Below, piece after piece: positions 23,788 to 28,463 of a stretch of 64,000 bases of DNA; the stretch's first letter is position 1; every line of letters begins with the position of its first letter. Both the position numbers and the translations under genes were made by a program. The notes under the pieces were generated by a model. It was not told the origin of the DNA. It searched no databases and saw only the letters and a program-made list of their open reading frames with translations. Origin of the DNA: Candidatus Desulfarcum epimagneticum (GTDB lineage: Bacteria > Desulfobacterota > Desulfobacteria > Desulfobacterales > CR-1); the NCBI GenBank assembly GCA_900659855.1, contig CAACVI010000012.1, positions 186,001-250,000 of the forward strand. Direction: 5' to 3'.

Positions 23788-24935
23788 GGGAAAAAGCCGA
23801 CGCCGGGCTCTACATCCATGTCCCGTTCTGCGTCAAAAAATGCCCCTACTGCGATTTCTTCTCCTCAACAGACCTGTCCGGGATGGGGGAGTTTTCACGG
23901 GCGCTGATCCGGGAAATGGAGACGCGCCGGAACCCGGCCCGGTTCGACACCCTTTACATCGGCGGGGGAACCCCGTCGCTTCTGAAACCGGCATTTCTGG
24001 AGGCCGTCCGGGACTCGGTTTTCAAAATCTTTCGCATGGACCCCGACGCCGAGATCACCATGGAGATCAACCCCGGGACTGTGGATTTTGAAAGACTGAC
24101 ATTTTTCAAAAGCCTGGGCGTCAACCGCTTAAGCGTGGGGGTCCAGTCTTTTTCCGACGATATTTTAAAATTCCTGGGCCGGATTCACACAGCCGCCGAC
24201 GCCGAAAAAACCATTGAATGGGCCAGGGCCGCGGGGTTTGAAAACATCTCCCTGGATTTGATATACGGAATTCCGGGCCAGACCCCCGCGGGCTGGCTCC
24301 AGACCCTTGAGCATGCGGCGAAACGCGAGCCGTCCCATCTGTCGTGCTACACGCTCACATACGAGGCCGGAACGAAAATGGAGGCGCGCCGCCAAAAAGG
24401 CGTCTTTCGGCCCCTTTCGGAAAAAATCGTGACACGCATGTGTAAAACCGGGGTCCGCCGTCTTGAGCGCCTGGGCTTTTCCCGGTATGAGATCTCCAGT
24501 TTTTCCCGGCCGGGCCGCATGTCCCGCCACAATATCAAATACTGGTCCGGGGCGCCCTATGTCGGGCTGGGGCCCTCGGCCCATTCCTATGCCGGCGGGG
24601 AACGGTCCTGGAACCCCAAAAGCCTGGGGCGCTATCTTCGGGATTTGAGACAGGGCCGGGCGCCCGCGGCCGGAAAGGAGCGGCTCACCCAGGCCCAGAA
24701 AATGACGGAGTTTTTTTACCTGGCCTTAAGACAAAGCCGGGGAATCGACGTCCATGCGTTCAAACGGCGCTTCAGGCTTGACTTTTACCCGTCCTTCAAA
24801 CGCCCCGTCTCCCTTCTGATTGAAAACGGCCTGGCGCGAAAGGGAAAGGACCGCTTCGCCCTGACCCTGGACGGGGCGCTGCTTCTGGACAGCGCGGCGG
24901 GACTGTTTGTGGAGGAGGCCGAAAAATTCGATTGA
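23784..24935 (+). CDS. hemW: Radical SAM HemW-type protein (coproporphyrinogen III oxidase-like)
   Basis: This 383-residue protein has the radical SAM cluster motif CVKKCPYCDFF. Family motifs LYIGGGTPSLL, VNRLSVGVQSFSDDILKFLGR and ISLDLIYGIPGQ follow. The C-terminal HemW domain includes YWSGAPYVGLGPSAHSY. HemW is a heme chaperone rather than a true oxidase. The annotation as HemW rather than HemN rests on the short N-terminus and spacing. It overlaps the preceding gene by ATGA. Confidence 0.9.
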   Translation: MREKADAGLYIHVPFCVKKCPYCDFFSSTDLSGMGEFSRALIREMETRRNPARFDTLYIGGGTPSLLKPAFLEAVRDSVFKIFRMDPDAEITMEINPGTVDFERLTFFKSLGVNRLSVGVQSFSDDILKFLGRIHTAADAEKTIEWARAAGFENISLDLIYGIPGQTPAGWLQTLEHAAKREPSHLSCYTLTYEAGTKMEARRQKGVFRPLSEKIVTRMCKTGVRRLERLGFSRYEISSFSRPGRMSRHNIKYWSGAPYVGLGPSAHSYAGGERSWNPKSLGRYLRDLRQGRAPAAGKERLTQAQKMTEFFYLALRQSRGIDVHAFKRRFRLDFYPSFKRPVSLLIENGLARKGKDRFALTLDGALLLDSAAGLFVEEAEKFD

Positions 24936-24960
24936 CACGGCCGGGCCTTTGGTGTAGGAA
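24932..24960 (+). promoter_or_regulatory. Sigma70 promoter for the nik leader
   Basis: TTGACA (24932-24937), a 17-base spacer and TAGGAA (24955-24960) form a good -35 and a fair -10. The -35 overlaps the last codons of hemW. Transcription would start near 24967 and give a leader of about 160 bases before nikK. Confidence 0.6.
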
Positions 24961-25128
24961 AATGAAAAAAACGGTGGCAGGAAGCCTCCTTTTTCATTTA
25001 TTTGTGACTTGCGCCGGGCTCGTTCGCCCAGGCGCGAAAAAATCAAAAACAAAGCCGCGAAGGCCATGCGTGTCAGGAAGACGGGCGTGATCTCGCGGCT
25101 TTTTTTTGGCGTAAAAAGGAGGCTTTTT
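24961..25128 (+). promoter_or_regulatory. Structured leader with anti-Shine-Dalgarno and terminator; candidate riboswitch
   Basis: Four structures are visible. (1) AATGAAAAA (24961-24969) pairs with TTTTTCATT (24990-24998). (2) AAGCCTCCTTTTT (24982-24994) is a perfect 13-nt complement of the ribosome binding site region AAAAAGGAGGCTT (25113-25125); this pairing competes with the first hairpin. (3) GCGCC/GGCGC with an inner GGGC/GCCC stem lies at 25011-25036. (4) GCCGCGA (25054-25060) pairs with TCGCGGC (25093-25099), followed by a T run, so it is terminator-like and only about 22 bases from the start codon. I do not recognise a known riboswitch class. Metal sensing is inferred from the genes controlled. 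Confidence 0.6.
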
Positions 25129-25129
25129 T

Positions 25130-25912
25130 ATGAAAAAATTTTTTTTGATCGCCGTGTGTCTGGCAGCGGGCGTTTTTCCGGCGCCGTTTTCGGCGCGGGC
25201 CCATTTCGGCATGGTCATCCCGTCCGATTCCATGGTGGGTCCCAAAGACCCCCGGGTTCTCAAACTGGAGGCGTCGTTTTCCCATCCCTTTGAGGGCGCG
25301 GGCATGGACATGGAAAAACCCAAAGTATTCGGCGCCCTCGCCCAGGGAAAAAAAACGGACCTGACCGGGTCTTTGAAACAAACCCGGATCATGGGCGGCG
25401 CGGCCTGGCGGGCGGATTTCGCCGTCAAACGCCCGGGCGCCCATATCTTTTACATGGAGCCCCGGCCCTATTTTGAGCCGGCCGAGGACTGTTTCATCAT
25501 CCATCACACCAAGACCGTGGCGGCGGTCTTCGGGGACGACGAGGGCTGGGACGCCGAGGTCGGGCTCAAAACCGAGATCGTCCCCGTGACCCGGCCATTC
25601 GGGCTGTACGCCGGCAACCTGTTCCAGGGAATCGTGAAAAAAGACGGCCGGCCCGTCCCCCACGCCCGGGTGGAGGTGGAGTTTTACAACCGGGAGAAAA
25701 AACTCCGGGCGCCCGCCGACGATATGATCACCCAGACCGTCAAGGCCGACGCGAACGGCCTTTTCAGCTACGCGGCGCCCATTCCCGGCTGGTGGGGATT
25801 TTCGGCGCTGACCCGGGCGGATCACACGCTCAAACACAAGGGCGAAGACAAGGATGTGGAGCTGGGCGCCGTGATATGGGTCCGGTTTCACCCGTTTCTT
25901 TCCAGCGACTGA
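25130..25912 (+). CDS. nikK: DUF4198 periplasmic protein of a nickel/cobalt ECF importer (NikK-like)
   Basis: This 260-residue protein has an N-terminal signal peptide (LIAVCLAAGVFPAPFSARA) and a mature start HFGMVIPSD, the DUF4198 opening with a putative metal-binding His. Later segments GLYAGNLFQGIVKKDGRPVP and TVKADANGLFSYAAP are typical. NikK proteins assist nickel uptake in NikKLMQO systems. AAGGAGG precedes the ATG and is sequestered in the predicted leader structure. It is the first of five adjacent importer genes. Confidence 0.85.
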   Translation: MKKFFLIAVCLAAGVFPAPFSARAHFGMVIPSDSMVGPKDPRVLKLEASFSHPFEGAGMDMEKPKVFGALAQGKKTDLTGSLKQTRIMGGAAWRADFAVKRPGAHIFYMEPRPYFEPAEDCFIIHHTKTVAAVFGDDEGWDAEVGLKTEIVPVTRPFGLYAGNLFQGIVKKDGRPVPHARVEVEFYNREKKLRAPADDMITQTVKADANGLFSYAAPIPGWWGFSALTRADHTLKHKGEDKDVELGAVIWVRFHPFLSSD

Positions 25913-25928
25913 TGATGGAGTGAAAACC

Positions 25929-26537
25929 ATGCACATCTCCGAAGGGGTTCTGACCCCGGAAATTCTGGCGGCCGGGGCCGTCCTGGCCGTGGCCGGGGCC
26001 GCCATCGGCCTTAAAAAAACCCGGAGCCGGGACATTCCGGCCATGGGAATTTTATCCGCCGCGTTTTTCGTGGCCTCTCTCATTCACATTCCCGTGGGGC
26101 CGGTTTCGGCCCACCTGGTTTTGAACGGCCTTCTGGGCCTGGTCCTGGGATGGCGGGCCTTTCCCGCCATTCTCACCGGCGTGATGCTCCAGGCCCTTCT
26201 TTTCCAGTTCGGAGGGATCACCGCCATCGGCGTGAACGCGGTGAACATGGCCCTGCCGGCGATAGTGTGTTTTCTTGTTTTCAAAAAAGGCGCCCGGCCG
26301 GAATCCAGCCCGCGCCTCTTTATGGCGACGGCGTTCGCCTGCGGATTTTTTTCCGTTCTTTTATCCGCCGCGCTCATCGCCCTGAGCCTTTCTCTGGCCG
26401 GGGACGCCTTTGTTCCGGCGGCCAAAGTCGCCGCCGTGGCCCATTTTCCCCTGATGGTCATCGAGGGCGTCATCACATCGGCCTGCGCCATGTTTTTGAG
26501 AAAAACAAAACCCGAGCTTCTGGGGGGCGGAGCATGA
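25929..26537 (+). CDS. nikM: ECF transporter S component, CbiM/NikM type
   Basis: A 202-residue integral membrane substrate-binding component with about six helices. The start at 25929 gives the N-terminus MHISEGVLTPEIL; His2 in this family is a direct metal ligand, so processing at this Met matters. GGAG lies 8 bases upstream; a GTG at 25920 would hide the His. The motif HIPVGPVSAHLVLNGLLGL is diagnostic. It could transport Ni or Co; the NikK and NikL neighbours favour nickel. Confidence 0.92.
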   Translation: MHISEGVLTPEILAAGAVLAVAGAAIGLKKTRSRDIPAMGILSAAFFVASLIHIPVGPVSAHLVLNGLLGLVLGWRAFPAILTGVMLQALLFQFGGITAIGVNAVNMALPAIVCFLVFKKGARPESSPRLFMATAFACGFFSVLLSAALIALSLSLAGDAFVPAAKVAAVAHFPLMVIEGVITSACAMFLRKTKPELLGGGA

Positions 26538-26998
26538 CCGGGATTCGGATCGTCTCAAAAGCGGCGGTGTGCGCCCTTGTTTTCGCGTGGCTCGCCTCCC
26601 CGGCCATGGCTCACCGGGTCCAGGTGTTCGCCTGGGCGGAAAACGGCCGGGTGTTCTGCGAGGGAAAATTCAGCGGCGGACGGCCGGCCAAAGGGGCCGA
26701 AATCGTGGTTTTTGATCCTGACGGACACATTCTTTTAAAGGGAAAGACAAACGAAAAAGGCGAATTTTCCTTTCCTGCCCCCTCCACAGGCGTCCGGGTG
26801 GTTTTAAACGCCTCCATGGGGCACCGGGGGGAATGGTCCGTTTCCCGCGAAGAGATGGGACCGGGCGCCGCGCCGGAAAAAACCCCGGGACCCTCCGCCT
26901 GGCGGGTCGTCCCGGGTCTGGCCGCTGTCCTGGCCCTTTCTGCGGCCGGGTTTTTCGCGATGAGGCGCCGGGAGACAAAGGGAAGAAGGAATTTATGA
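26534..26998 (+). CDS. nikL: NikL-type auxiliary membrane protein of the nickel importer
   Basis: The 154 residues comprise a signal-like N-terminus (AVCALVFAWLASPAMA), an extracytoplasmic beta-sandwich-like domain starting HRVQVFAWAENGRVF with the carbohydrate-like segment KGAEIVVFDPDG, and a C-terminal helix (VVPGLAAVLALSAAGFFAM) followed by a basic tail. This matches NikL, which replaces CbiN in nickel systems. The start overlaps the nikM stop (ATGA). The first residue of the mature protein is a His. Confidence 0.8.
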   Translation: MTGIRIVSKAAVCALVFAWLASPAMAHRVQVFAWAENGRVFCEGKFSGGRPAKGAEIVVFDPDGHILLKGKTNEKGEFSFPAPSTGVRVVLNASMGHRGEWSVSREEMGPGAAPEKTPGPSAWRVVPGLAAVLALSAAGFFAMRRRETKGRRNL

Positions 26999-27750
26999 AC
27001 GAAACCGTGATCCAGGACTCATTCGCCGCCCGTCTGGACCCCCGGGCCAAGCTCGTGTCGATTCTGGCGTTTTCCATTTTCGCCTCGGTGGCAAACCGCT
27101 TTTCGGTTCTTTTGATCCTTTTTCTCATGGGCGTTTGCATGCTCGTTTTATCCCGGGCGCCTTTGCCGGAGATTTTCAAACGCCTGGCGCCGGTGAACCT
27201 GATGGTCCTGTTTTTATGGTGTTTTCTTCCCTTCACCTTCCCCGGGGACACGGTTTTCTCCATGGGGTCTTTGTCCGCCTCCCGCGAGGGGATTTTGCGC
27301 GCGGCCCAAATTTCCGTCAAGTGTAACGCCATCATGCCGGCGCTGATTGCGCTGACGATGTCCTCCTCCATTTCAGACATCGGCCGGGCCATGCGCCGCC
27401 TGGGGCTCAATGAAAAAATGACCCATCTTTTTCTCTTCGCCTGGCGCTACGCGCACGTGATTCACACGGAATACGGGCGTTTGCTCTGGGCCGCCAAAAT
27501 CCGGGGATTTTCCCCGAAAAACAACCTGCACACCTACCGGACCGCGGCCTGGCTCGCGGGCATGACCCTGGTCAAAAGCGCGGACCGGGCGATTCGGGTT
27601 TACAACGCCATGCTGTGCCGGGGGTTTGACGGCAAATTTTACGGAATCAACGAGTTTTCAATGACCAAAACCGATATCACGGTCATGGCGGCCATGGGCG
27701 CCGCCGTGGCGGGACTGGGGGTGGTGGAATGGGCGCATCCGATATTCTGA
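26995..27750 (+). CDS. nikQ: ECF transporter transmembrane T component, CbiQ/NikQ
   Basis: A 251-residue membrane coupling protein. It begins with a cytoplasmic segment DSFAARLDPRAKLVSIL and has several hydrophobic helices. The coupling-helix motif of T components appears as AAKIRGFSPKN and near AIRVYNAMLCRGFDGK. It overlaps nikL by 4 bases and nikO by 22 bases. It joins the S component to the ATPase. Confidence 0.9.
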   Translation: MNETVIQDSFAARLDPRAKLVSILAFSIFASVANRFSVLLILFLMGVCMLVLSRAPLPEIFKRLAPVNLMVLFLWCFLPFTFPGDTVFSMGSLSASREGILRAAQISVKCNAIMPALIALTMSSSISDIGRAMRRLGLNEKMTHLFLFAWRYAHVIHTEYGRLLWAAKIRGFSPKNNLHTYRTAAWLAGMTLVKSADRAIRVYNAMLCRGFDGKFYGINEFSMTKTDITVMAAMGAAVAGLGVVEWAHPIF

Positions 27751-28463
27751 TCCATTTAAAAGACGTGACGTTTTCTCATCCCGGCGGGCCGCCGATCCTG
27801 GACCGGCTGAATTTCAGCCTGTCACGGGGGGAGCGCGTCGGTCTTCTGGGCCCCAACGGGAGCGGGAAAAGCACGCTTTTCCACATCATCATGGGCCTGT
27901 TGAAGCCTTCGGCCGGGCGTGTGGAGATTTTCGGAACACACATGAAAAAAGAAAAGGATTTTGTCCCGGTCCGCAAGCGCATGGGCCTGGTGTTCCAGGA
28001 CCCGGACGATCAGCTTTTTTGCCCCACGGTTCTGGAGGACGTGGCCTTCGGACCCCTGAACCAGGGCAAAAGCCCGAAGGAGGCGGCCGGCATCGCCCGC
28101 GATACCCTGGCCTTTCTGGGCCTTGACGGCTTTGAGGACAAAAGCGCCCACAAGCTTTCCGGGGGCGAGAAACGCCTGGTGTCTCTGGCCACGGCCCTTT
28201 CCATGCGGCCCGAGGCGCTGCTTCTGGACGAGCCGTCCAACGGCCTGGATGAAAAAACCCGCCAGAGGCTTCTGGACGTCCTGTCCGGCCTGGACATCTC
28301 CCTGGTCCTGATCTCCCACAACATGGATTTCACGAACGCGCTCACCGACTCCATTTGCATGGTGAAGGAGGGAAAAATCATCACGGACGGCGTTCCCATG
28401 GCCCACCGGCATGTGCATGTTCATGCCTTCGGCGGGCAGGAGCATTCCCACGGGCATCATTGA
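27729..28463 (+). CDS. nikO: ECF transporter ATPase, CbiO/NikO
   Basis: A 244-residue ABC ATPase. Walker A is GPNGSGKST, the Q-loop is MGLVFQDPDDQLF, the signature is LSGGEKR, and Walker B is ALLLDEPSNGLD. The C-terminus is histidine-rich (HRHVHVHAFGG, then HSHGHH), which suggests a metal-binding tail, unusual in a general ABC ATPase but consistent with nickel. It closes the importer operon, and a strong hairpin follows. Confidence 0.93.
   Translation: MGASDILIHLKDVTFSHPGGPPILDRLNFSLSRGERVGLLGPNGSGKSTLFHIIMGLLKPSAGRVEIFGTHMKKEKDFVPVRKRMGLVFQDPDDQLFCPTVLEDVAFGPLNQGKSPKEAAGIARDTLAFLGLDGFEDKSAHKLSGGEKRLVSLATALSMRPEALLLDEPSNGLDEKTRQRLLDVLSGLDISLVLISHNMDFTNALTDSICMVKEGKIITDGVPMAHRHVHVHAFGGQEHSHGHH

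Follow-up and report, generated by a model that had tools for sequence, protein, structure and literature searches.

We analysed the DNA directly before nikK in a nickel importer operon of Candidatus Desulfarcum epimagneticum (Desulfobacterales), lying within a stretch of 64,000 nucleotides (nt) that we call the window (contig CAACVI010000012.1, positions 186,001 to 250,000, forward strand; positions below are counted from its first letter). Comparison with related loci indicates that this DNA very probably encodes a conserved cis-acting 5' leader RNA, which would serve nickel/cobalt uptake operons as a conditional intrinsic terminator. An earlier note, made from the sequence of the window, had suggested a possible unknown riboswitch or attenuator here and had proposed covariation among the leaders of nikK homologues as the test; no Rfam 15 family matched, and covariation was found, in two alignments of 25 and 77 leaders. 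For the leader (24967-25110) the calculated folding energy is -64.9 kcal/mol (z -5.3; 0/200 shuffles as good), and over 185 nt the z value is -4.9, likewise with 0/200 shuffles as good.

Of 58 genomes, each representing one family of the same order, 43 gave a NikK match. Thirty nikK loci (29 from relatives and that of the window) were compared, and in 25 of them the same elements stand directly before nikK: a small hairpin (A), a mostly AU-rich linker, and a terminator (B) enclosing a further hairpin (C), with the consensus ACCACGAAGGU...GUAUC-AUGAA-GAUAC...UCGUGG-UUUUUUUU and its window counterpart at 25051-25107. The first alignments took these 25 leaders; five others (L005, L009, L019, L026 and L030) were left out by eye as having no motif or part of one, the leader of L030 being matched later (G051:C13) by R2, our model of the whole motif. 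Across B and C, 92% of the alignment cells were paired (35-50% in slid controls), 11 of 15 pairs showed changes in both partners (0/500 shuffles), and 46 double-change cells were counted against 15.7 in shuffles. A larger set covering A, B and C was restricted to leaders that scored 4 or more for hairpin A (the window leader exempt) and had a length of 70-165, which gave 88 leaders, thinned to 81, of which 77 were aligned (L003, L083, L132 and L133 omitted). Here 92.4% of cells were paired, both partners had changed in 18 of 22 pairs, and double-change cells numbered 225 against 64, with 0/500 shuffles on all five measures.

Hairpin A was also scored on its own: 91 of 125 upstream segments contained a good (N)NGAA hairpin (score of at least 5), against a mean of 4.2 and a maximum of 9 in 100 rounds of dinucleotide shuffles. 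The window copy scores 3.3, under this threshold because of a U-U mismatch. The distance between hairpin A and the terminator is variable, with linkers of mostly 20-60 nt. A clear hairpin A is present in 90 leaders (window leader included). Upstream of it, 78 of these carry a TTGAC at a distance of 45-52 nt from the loop GAA (49 nt in the window); anywhere from -75 to -12 before this GAA it occurs in 80 of the 90, whereas base shuffles gave a mean of 4.7 and a maximum of 12. Because this -35 box keeps a nearly fixed distance, hairpin A should be situated at the very 5' end of the transcript. In a scan of 124 copies, hairpin C carries a pentaloop in 97, with the consensus A-N-G-A-A, position 2 being free.

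The 5' arm of the terminator can also fold into a mini-hairpin (B'), which across the family has the form GCC/ACC-ACGAA-GGC/GGU with a loop that is mostly ACGAA. Over 150 copies, CC..GG was kept in 138; among these, positions 5-15 pair in 128 (shuffle mean 104.4) and positions 4-16 in 55 (44.7 expected, p 0.0002). On the 77 leaders, B' was equalled by 0/500 shuffles for pairing and covariation score, but its number of pairs was no better. No base of B is conserved as a partner for the conserved GG (of AAGGU), although in the window this GG is weakly paired inside the terminator fold. The calculated energies in the window are -30.9 kcal/mol for B and -4.3 kcal/mol for B' (on a 17-nt piece). Read from the alignments, the conserved parts are hairpin A and the terminator, plus the terminator-overlapping B'.

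To follow the RNA beyond these loci, R2 and a model of the terminator part (R1) were searched against genomes of the order, a phylum sample of 297 genomes and two alphaproteobacterial loci; E-values are rough (short calibration), and wherever more than 40 genomes were searched the filters were stricter, at the cost of weak matches. With R1, matches at E<=0.1 turned up in 296 of the 389 genomes searched in the order, the weak ones among them perhaps ordinary terminators; in the phylum sample, 75 of 297 genomes had a match at E<=0.01. R2 matched 46 of the 58 relatives and 72 of the 297 phylum genomes, with up to 10 matches per genome (G035). It also matched 62 of 80 named nikK loci, many from species that had helped to build it, two of the matches (L175, L195) lying far from nikK. 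A cultured species with the RNA is Desulfonema magnum (L161). In the genome of the window the leader is present once (R2 E 1.2e-7, next match 9.8), and a mobile element or repeat is rejected on the strength of this single copy. The two alphaproteobacterial nikK loci scanned (L220 and L225; records Roseitranquillus and Bauldia) gave no R2 match; their NikK proteins are 58-61% identical to the query, which may reflect transfer or contamination.

Behind the RNA stand mostly nikK, cbiM and further genes of uptake or of the outer membrane. We took 60 further order-level R1 matches in rank order (E 7.7e-10 to 3.1e-6), minus places already in hand, of which three had no usable downstream sequence. 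At 47 of the 57 usable places nikK, cbiM or nikL follows within about 2 kb: nikK comes first at 36, cbiM at six (at L136 by Pfam), a porin-like gene and then nikK at four (OprB at L146, the other three by reading), and FmdE and then nikL at one. At eight others the RNA precedes genes for porin-like or Phenol_MetA_deg proteins, SBP_bac_5, Peripla_BP_2, a TonB receptor or DUF3842; the porin-like products at L099 and L111 belong to no Pfam family. Twenty earlier places, second copies or odd matches chosen by hand and partly of the same score range, add nikK, cbiM, cbiO, nikL, TonB receptors and outer membrane proteins. The wider phylum holds a second class, mostly with a perfect GCC-ACGAA-GGC and up to five copies per genome, some in tandem, and its downstream genes include TonB, ExbB, FecCD, SBP_bac_5, FmdE, tetrapyrrole methylase, methyltransferase, TrmO, CbiM and DUF3842. 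In four copies of this class (L235, L238, L250, L252) hairpin A was seen by eye to be hexaloop-like, to have another closing pair or to be duplicated, L250 having two consecutive A hairpins. FmdE, TrmO-like, methyltransferase and FecCD genes recur under the RNA (L237, L238, L250, L254, L257, L304) and possibly constitute a metal-acquisition cluster. Terminator copies in tandem, with starts 60-67 nt apart, occur at G524:C46:91850-91967, G432:C6:4443-4558, G637:C114:3055-3173 and G467:C44:43923-44041, those of G524 before a TonB Plug protein (L249), and possibly provide two-step attenuation.

Structure, covariation, promoter-like box spacing, terminator and gene contexts all come from comparison; for the switch, its direction, its signal and its factor we propose the following. 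Hairpin A would come right after the transcription start, and unless something intervenes the stable terminator B would form and end transcription. Under permissive conditions B' would capture the 5' arm of B in its 3-4 base pairs, so that the polymerase reads through. Termination as the default, with read-through depending on a factor, is the best fit to a strong B, a weak B' and a GG that lacks a conserved partner in B. Because B' alone is weak, an outside factor is presumably needed, and A and B' (with C, three hairpins) would present C-(A)NGAA-G loops to it for stabilisation. Since import genes follow, termination is probably favoured by nickel or cobalt sufficiency. For an importer the permissive state would then be metal shortage, which points to a protein that releases the RNA when metal-loaded. 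That the factor is a protein, with DUF3842 as the first candidate, we regard as about evenly balanced; direct binding of a metal or small ligand by the RNA is somewhat less probable.

Several observations weigh against this reading. The mechanism is proposed from sequence comparison, and no motif was seen before nikK in three of the 30 loci (L005, L019, L026). The pairing of hairpin A in the 77-leader alignment is partly the result of selection, as rows were chosen by hairpin A, and the count over the 125 upstream segments is the fairer test; the sequences are moreover related, and the shuffle counts and p values therefore overstate their independence. B' consists of just 3-4 pairs, two of which never covary, and the bases of its variable pair can pair in B as well. 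With the first 25 leaders, the paired cells of B' were equalled in 53/500 shuffles and its covariation score in 19/500. Of 128 copies in which both structures could be judged, 73 have a fourth base compatible with B alone, 8 with B' alone and 41 with both, and in 6 it is compatible with neither. A variant subclass recognised by eye (L003, L008, L013, L075, L077, L128) has CCGCA...UGCGG terminators without B'. Two of the 57 order-level places (L129, L145) have unclear contexts that do not fit metal uptake, nor does the class I fumarase/tartrate dehydratase gene that follows motif-like copies in three genomes (L081, L085 and L086, Pfam on L081 only), which come from the twenty places chosen by hand; at L085 and L086 an apparent further terminator lies just upstream of the copy.

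Among the candidate regulators, NikR_C matched 2 of the 58 relatives and none in the window genome, while 5 of 14 control genomes were matched, E. coli among them. Of the two relatives with NikR, one (G041) has neither an R2 nor a DUF3842 match, and the other (G039) has the variant RNA class (L008) and no DUF3842 match. A NikR-regulated promoter was considered for the window and rejected: the half-site-like TTGACAC-N13-GTGTAGG (24932-24958), which resembles the reversed Desulfotalea NikR signal given in PMC545781, coincides with the -35 box region, and NikR was not matched in the genome. The small protein DUF3842 was noticed as the gene behind several RNA copies and was found in 45 of the 58 relatives and in 104 of the 297 phylum genomes. 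It is present in 43 of 46 relatives with the RNA and in 2 of 12 without (p 3e-7), or in 36 of 37 and 1 of 9 among relatives with completeness of 90% or more and contamination of 5% or less; in the phylum the figures are 67 of 72 with and 37 of 225 without an R2 match, assuming that both searches drew the same 297 genomes. For comparison, NikK gave p 0.26 and CbiM 40 of 46 versus 7 of 12 (p 0.04), none of these tests being corrected for descent. All ten RNA-bearing genomes without a NikK match have DUF3842, and six of the seven NikK genomes without the RNA lack it. In the relatives, 6 of 55 matches place the gene at most 350 nt behind an R2 copy and on its strand, and six places in the phylum sample do likewise; it also follows an RNA copy at L125 and L144. 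Where it follows directly, we read the arrangement as putative autoregulation. The conserved motifs of 17 DUF3842 sequences (DGxGGGIG, GTN, ANxGAxGE, PLPH) suggest a Rossmann-like ligand binder; a sequence search of PDB gave no credible relative (best E 0.94), and our literature search found no mention of DUF3842. The DUF3842 locus L125 also contains an Acido-Lenti-1 RNA (RF01687) at 1688-1733.

Two readings of the factor deserve comparable attention, and we hold each to be a real prospect that falls somewhat short of even. In a direct Ni2+/Co2+ or small-ligand riboswitch, the ANGAA loops and the conserved AGGU would bind the ligand and stabilise terminator B as an off switch. Such a switch would suit an importer, and it is consistent with loop letters conserved in A, B' and C, with conservation in cis before several kinds of nickel/cobalt uptake genes and with the scarcity of NikR among the relatives; the GG of AAGGU, however, makes better sense as the 3' arm of B' competing with the terminator, the position of hairpin A varies, and DUF3842 tracks the RNA better than do NikK and CbiM, the transporter genes tested. 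In antitermination dependent on DUF3842, the metal-free protein would bind the A and B' (and C) loops and let the polymerase pass, which agrees with the co-occurrence and with the gene positions directly behind R2 copies. Yet 25 of the 104 DUF3842 genomes have no R1 or R2 match, and 16 regions around DUF3842 in 14 RNA-less genomes gave one weak match; conversely, DUF3842 was not matched in G036, G037, G039 and five genomes of the phylum sample, all of which have an R2 match. In 49 of the 55 matches, that of the window genome included, no R2 copy directly precedes the gene. DUF3842 has no known RNA-binding fold, its DGxGGGIG looks Rossmann-like, it may be a mere member of the regulon, and the lack of correction for descent also bears on its co-occurrence. 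That the RNA family replaces NikR as nickel regulator in Desulfobacterales and other Desulfobacterota, with DUF3842 as a metal-responsive antitermination factor, making a new RNA-protein pair, is a tentative proposal that we consider rather less likely than its opposite. If true, the pair would control a nickel/cobalt uptake regulon with TonB receptors and porins in the outer membrane and with NikKMLQO and ATP-binding cassette transporters of the SBP_bac_5 and FecCD types in the inner membrane. The RNA class as such could explain nickel control in an order of sulfate reducers in which NikR was found in 2 of 58 families. It likewise offers DUF3842 its first testable role and singles out unannotated uptake genes, those for porins, TonB receptors, FmdE and methyltransferases, as possible members of one metal regulon.

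The remaining explanations carry less weight. An ordinary hemW terminator with a chance match to the Shine-Dalgarno region would account for a good intrinsic terminator downstream of hemW, but it is refuted by the comparative data and hardly credible, as the RNA recurs before nikK, cbiM, TonB and other genes in many genomes at a nearly fixed distance from the -35 box. The match itself, which the earlier note had pointed out, is real: AAGCCTCCTTTTT (24982-24994) is the exact reverse complement of 25113-25125, the region with the GGAGG of nikK, and 0/5000 dinucleotide shuffles of the leader reach 13 nt (maximum 12). The full-length leader, past the terminator, folds preferentially with this pairing. 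Hairpin A and the Shine-Dalgarno sequence compete for the same strand, so that stabilising hairpin A would free the latter, and both layers could act together. In the other 24 leaders compared the complementarity is just 4-10 nt; the 13-nt anti-Shine-Dalgarno is peculiar to the window genome among the 25. Translational control by its sequestration, alone or on top of attenuation, is therefore improbable though worth keeping in view, and an extra translational layer in the window genome alone is possible. As a conserved switch part AAGCCTCC had to be given up: it is the 3' half of hairpin A, and a long Shine-Dalgarno match occurs in 1 of 25 leaders. Of the two switch-like decisions envisaged earlier, termination is retained and the anti-Shine-Dalgarno as a conserved device is not. 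The alternative upstream pairing (24961-24969 with 24990-24998) does join reverse complements, and it probably does not form in the RNA, because its first strand lies mostly 5' of the transcript start, predicted at about 24967 from the TTGACA at 24932. A start downstream of the anti-Shine-Dalgarno segment, named in the earlier note as the case against it, is at odds with the TTGAC spacing, which puts hairpin A at the predicted 5' end. The GC stem with its T run (T25100-T25107) does end 22 nt before the ATG at 25130, as described, and transcription must pass it to reach nikK, but the stem is larger than the seven pairs proposed, having ten plus an inner hairpin. An ANTAR-type two-hairpin antiterminator shares the layout of the family, a pair of small hairpins of which the latter overlaps the terminator (PMC3369931). 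We consider it very improbable and largely ruled out: ANTAR proteins occur in 31 of the 58 relatives and not in the window genome, their co-occurrence with the RNA gives p 0.52, and they are absent from 20 of 46 RNA-bearing genomes.

In the window, the leader stands between a radical-SAM/HemN_C protein (Pfam), which we read as hemW, and the operon nikK (DUF4198)-cbiM-nikL-cbiQ-cbiO-type ATPase (Table 1). A scan of 24000-26000 with promoter consensus sequences reported none, the -10 matches being 3/6 only. The ATG at 24962 falls before the point where the transcript is predicted to begin, which also speaks against a leader peptide.

Table 1. Positions of leader elements, promoter-like signals and operon genes in the window.
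Feature	Position	Strand	Basis or remark
Predicted -35 box TTGACA	24932..24937	+	Sequence; overlaps hemW stop codon
Weak -10 box TAGGAA	24955-24960	+	17-nt spacer from TTGACA; 3/6 consensus matches
Hairpin A, GG-U-GGC / GCC-U-CC, loop AGGAA 24979-24983	24973..24989	+	Conserved, predicted 5'-terminal hairpin; family loop (A)NGAA
13-nt complement of nikK Shine-Dalgarno region	24982..24994	+	3' half of hairpin A plus UUUUU
Extra GC hairpin in linker	25009..25037	+	Not seen in aligned relatives, where linkers are mostly AU-rich
Terminator B, 25051-25060 paired with 25093-25102, U-run 25100-25107	25051..25107	+	Folding, covariation
Mini-hairpin B', GCC-GCGAA-GGC	25054..25064	+	Mutually exclusive with terminator B
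Hairpin C inside terminator, loop AGGAA 25075-25079	25065..25089	+	Family consensus ANGAA
Shine-Dalgarno GGAGG of nikK	25118..25122	+	Sequence
nikK, DUF4198 (PF10670)	25130..25912	+	Pfam family, homologue search
cbiM/nikM	25920..26537	+	Protein family models
nikL	26534..26998	+	NF058648
cbiQ/nikQ	26995..27750	+	Protein family models
cbiO/nikO-type ATPase	27729..28463	+	ABC_tran; below curated cut-offs of cbiO models

Compared with known RNAs, the leader has the GC stem and following U-run of an intrinsic terminator, and at gathering score no Rfam 15 family lies over it in the window or the related loci, the best score being 21.3 against a cutoff of 55 (Phe_leader); elsewhere in the scanned loci Rfam matched two tRNAs, one cobalamin element and the Acido-Lenti-1 RNA. 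The RNA is, as judged by these comparisons, a conserved class matched by no Rfam 15 family and undescribed as far as searched: the literature search found no description of it, with a 2017 survey of 224 RNAs and Desulfotalea-1, an RNA named without an Rfam number (PMC2864571), left uncompared, so that an earlier naming is possible. The covariance model of the NiCo riboswitch (RF02683) matched neither the window nor 40 related loci. That riboswitch, a four-way junction before export genes, responds to Ni2+/Co2+ and shares with our RNA the metal transport genes downstream, but its architecture is different. The cobalamin riboswitch, which precedes some NikK-type operons in other proteobacteria (PMC2667541), was not matched in the leader, its one match (L017) lying elsewhere in that locus. 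A peptide-leader attenuator is rejected, as a short open reading frame of at least eight codons with a ribosome binding site was found in 0/25 leaders. Guanidine-II (mini-ykkC) RNAs consist of two hairpins with conserved ACGR loops; our RNA differs in giving no Rfam match, in its genes and in the terminator overlap. CsrA/RsmA recognises the target loop ANGGA, and it too is rejected, since the C loop is AGGAA in 14 of 124 copies and most loops are NGAA, so that GGA is not the rule. To our knowledge, Desulfovibrio, Geobacter, Desulfuromonas and Desulfotalea all fall outside the order of the window genome. In these four genera NikR sites are described at nikMQO/nikKMLQO operons (PMC545781), that is, the same transporter type is under nickel control, unlike here by a DNA-binding repressor. 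The nearest likeness is to the targets of ANTAR antiterminators (EutV, NasR, AmiR), which also have two small hairpins with conserved loop letters and terminator overlap, an overlap that for B' is supported and not proven. ANTAR targets carry hexanucleotide loops with A1 and G4 (PMC3369931), whereas our RNA has (A)NGAA tetra- or pentaloops, apart from a few second-class hexaloops seen by eye (L235, L238), and its longer linkers contrast with the 5-12 nt of eut leaders; it further differs in the third hairpin within the terminator and in the want of an ANTAR protein in the window genome. We class the RNA with the terminator-overlapping antiterminators, closest in plan to the ANTAR targets and set apart from them by its loops and by the protein.

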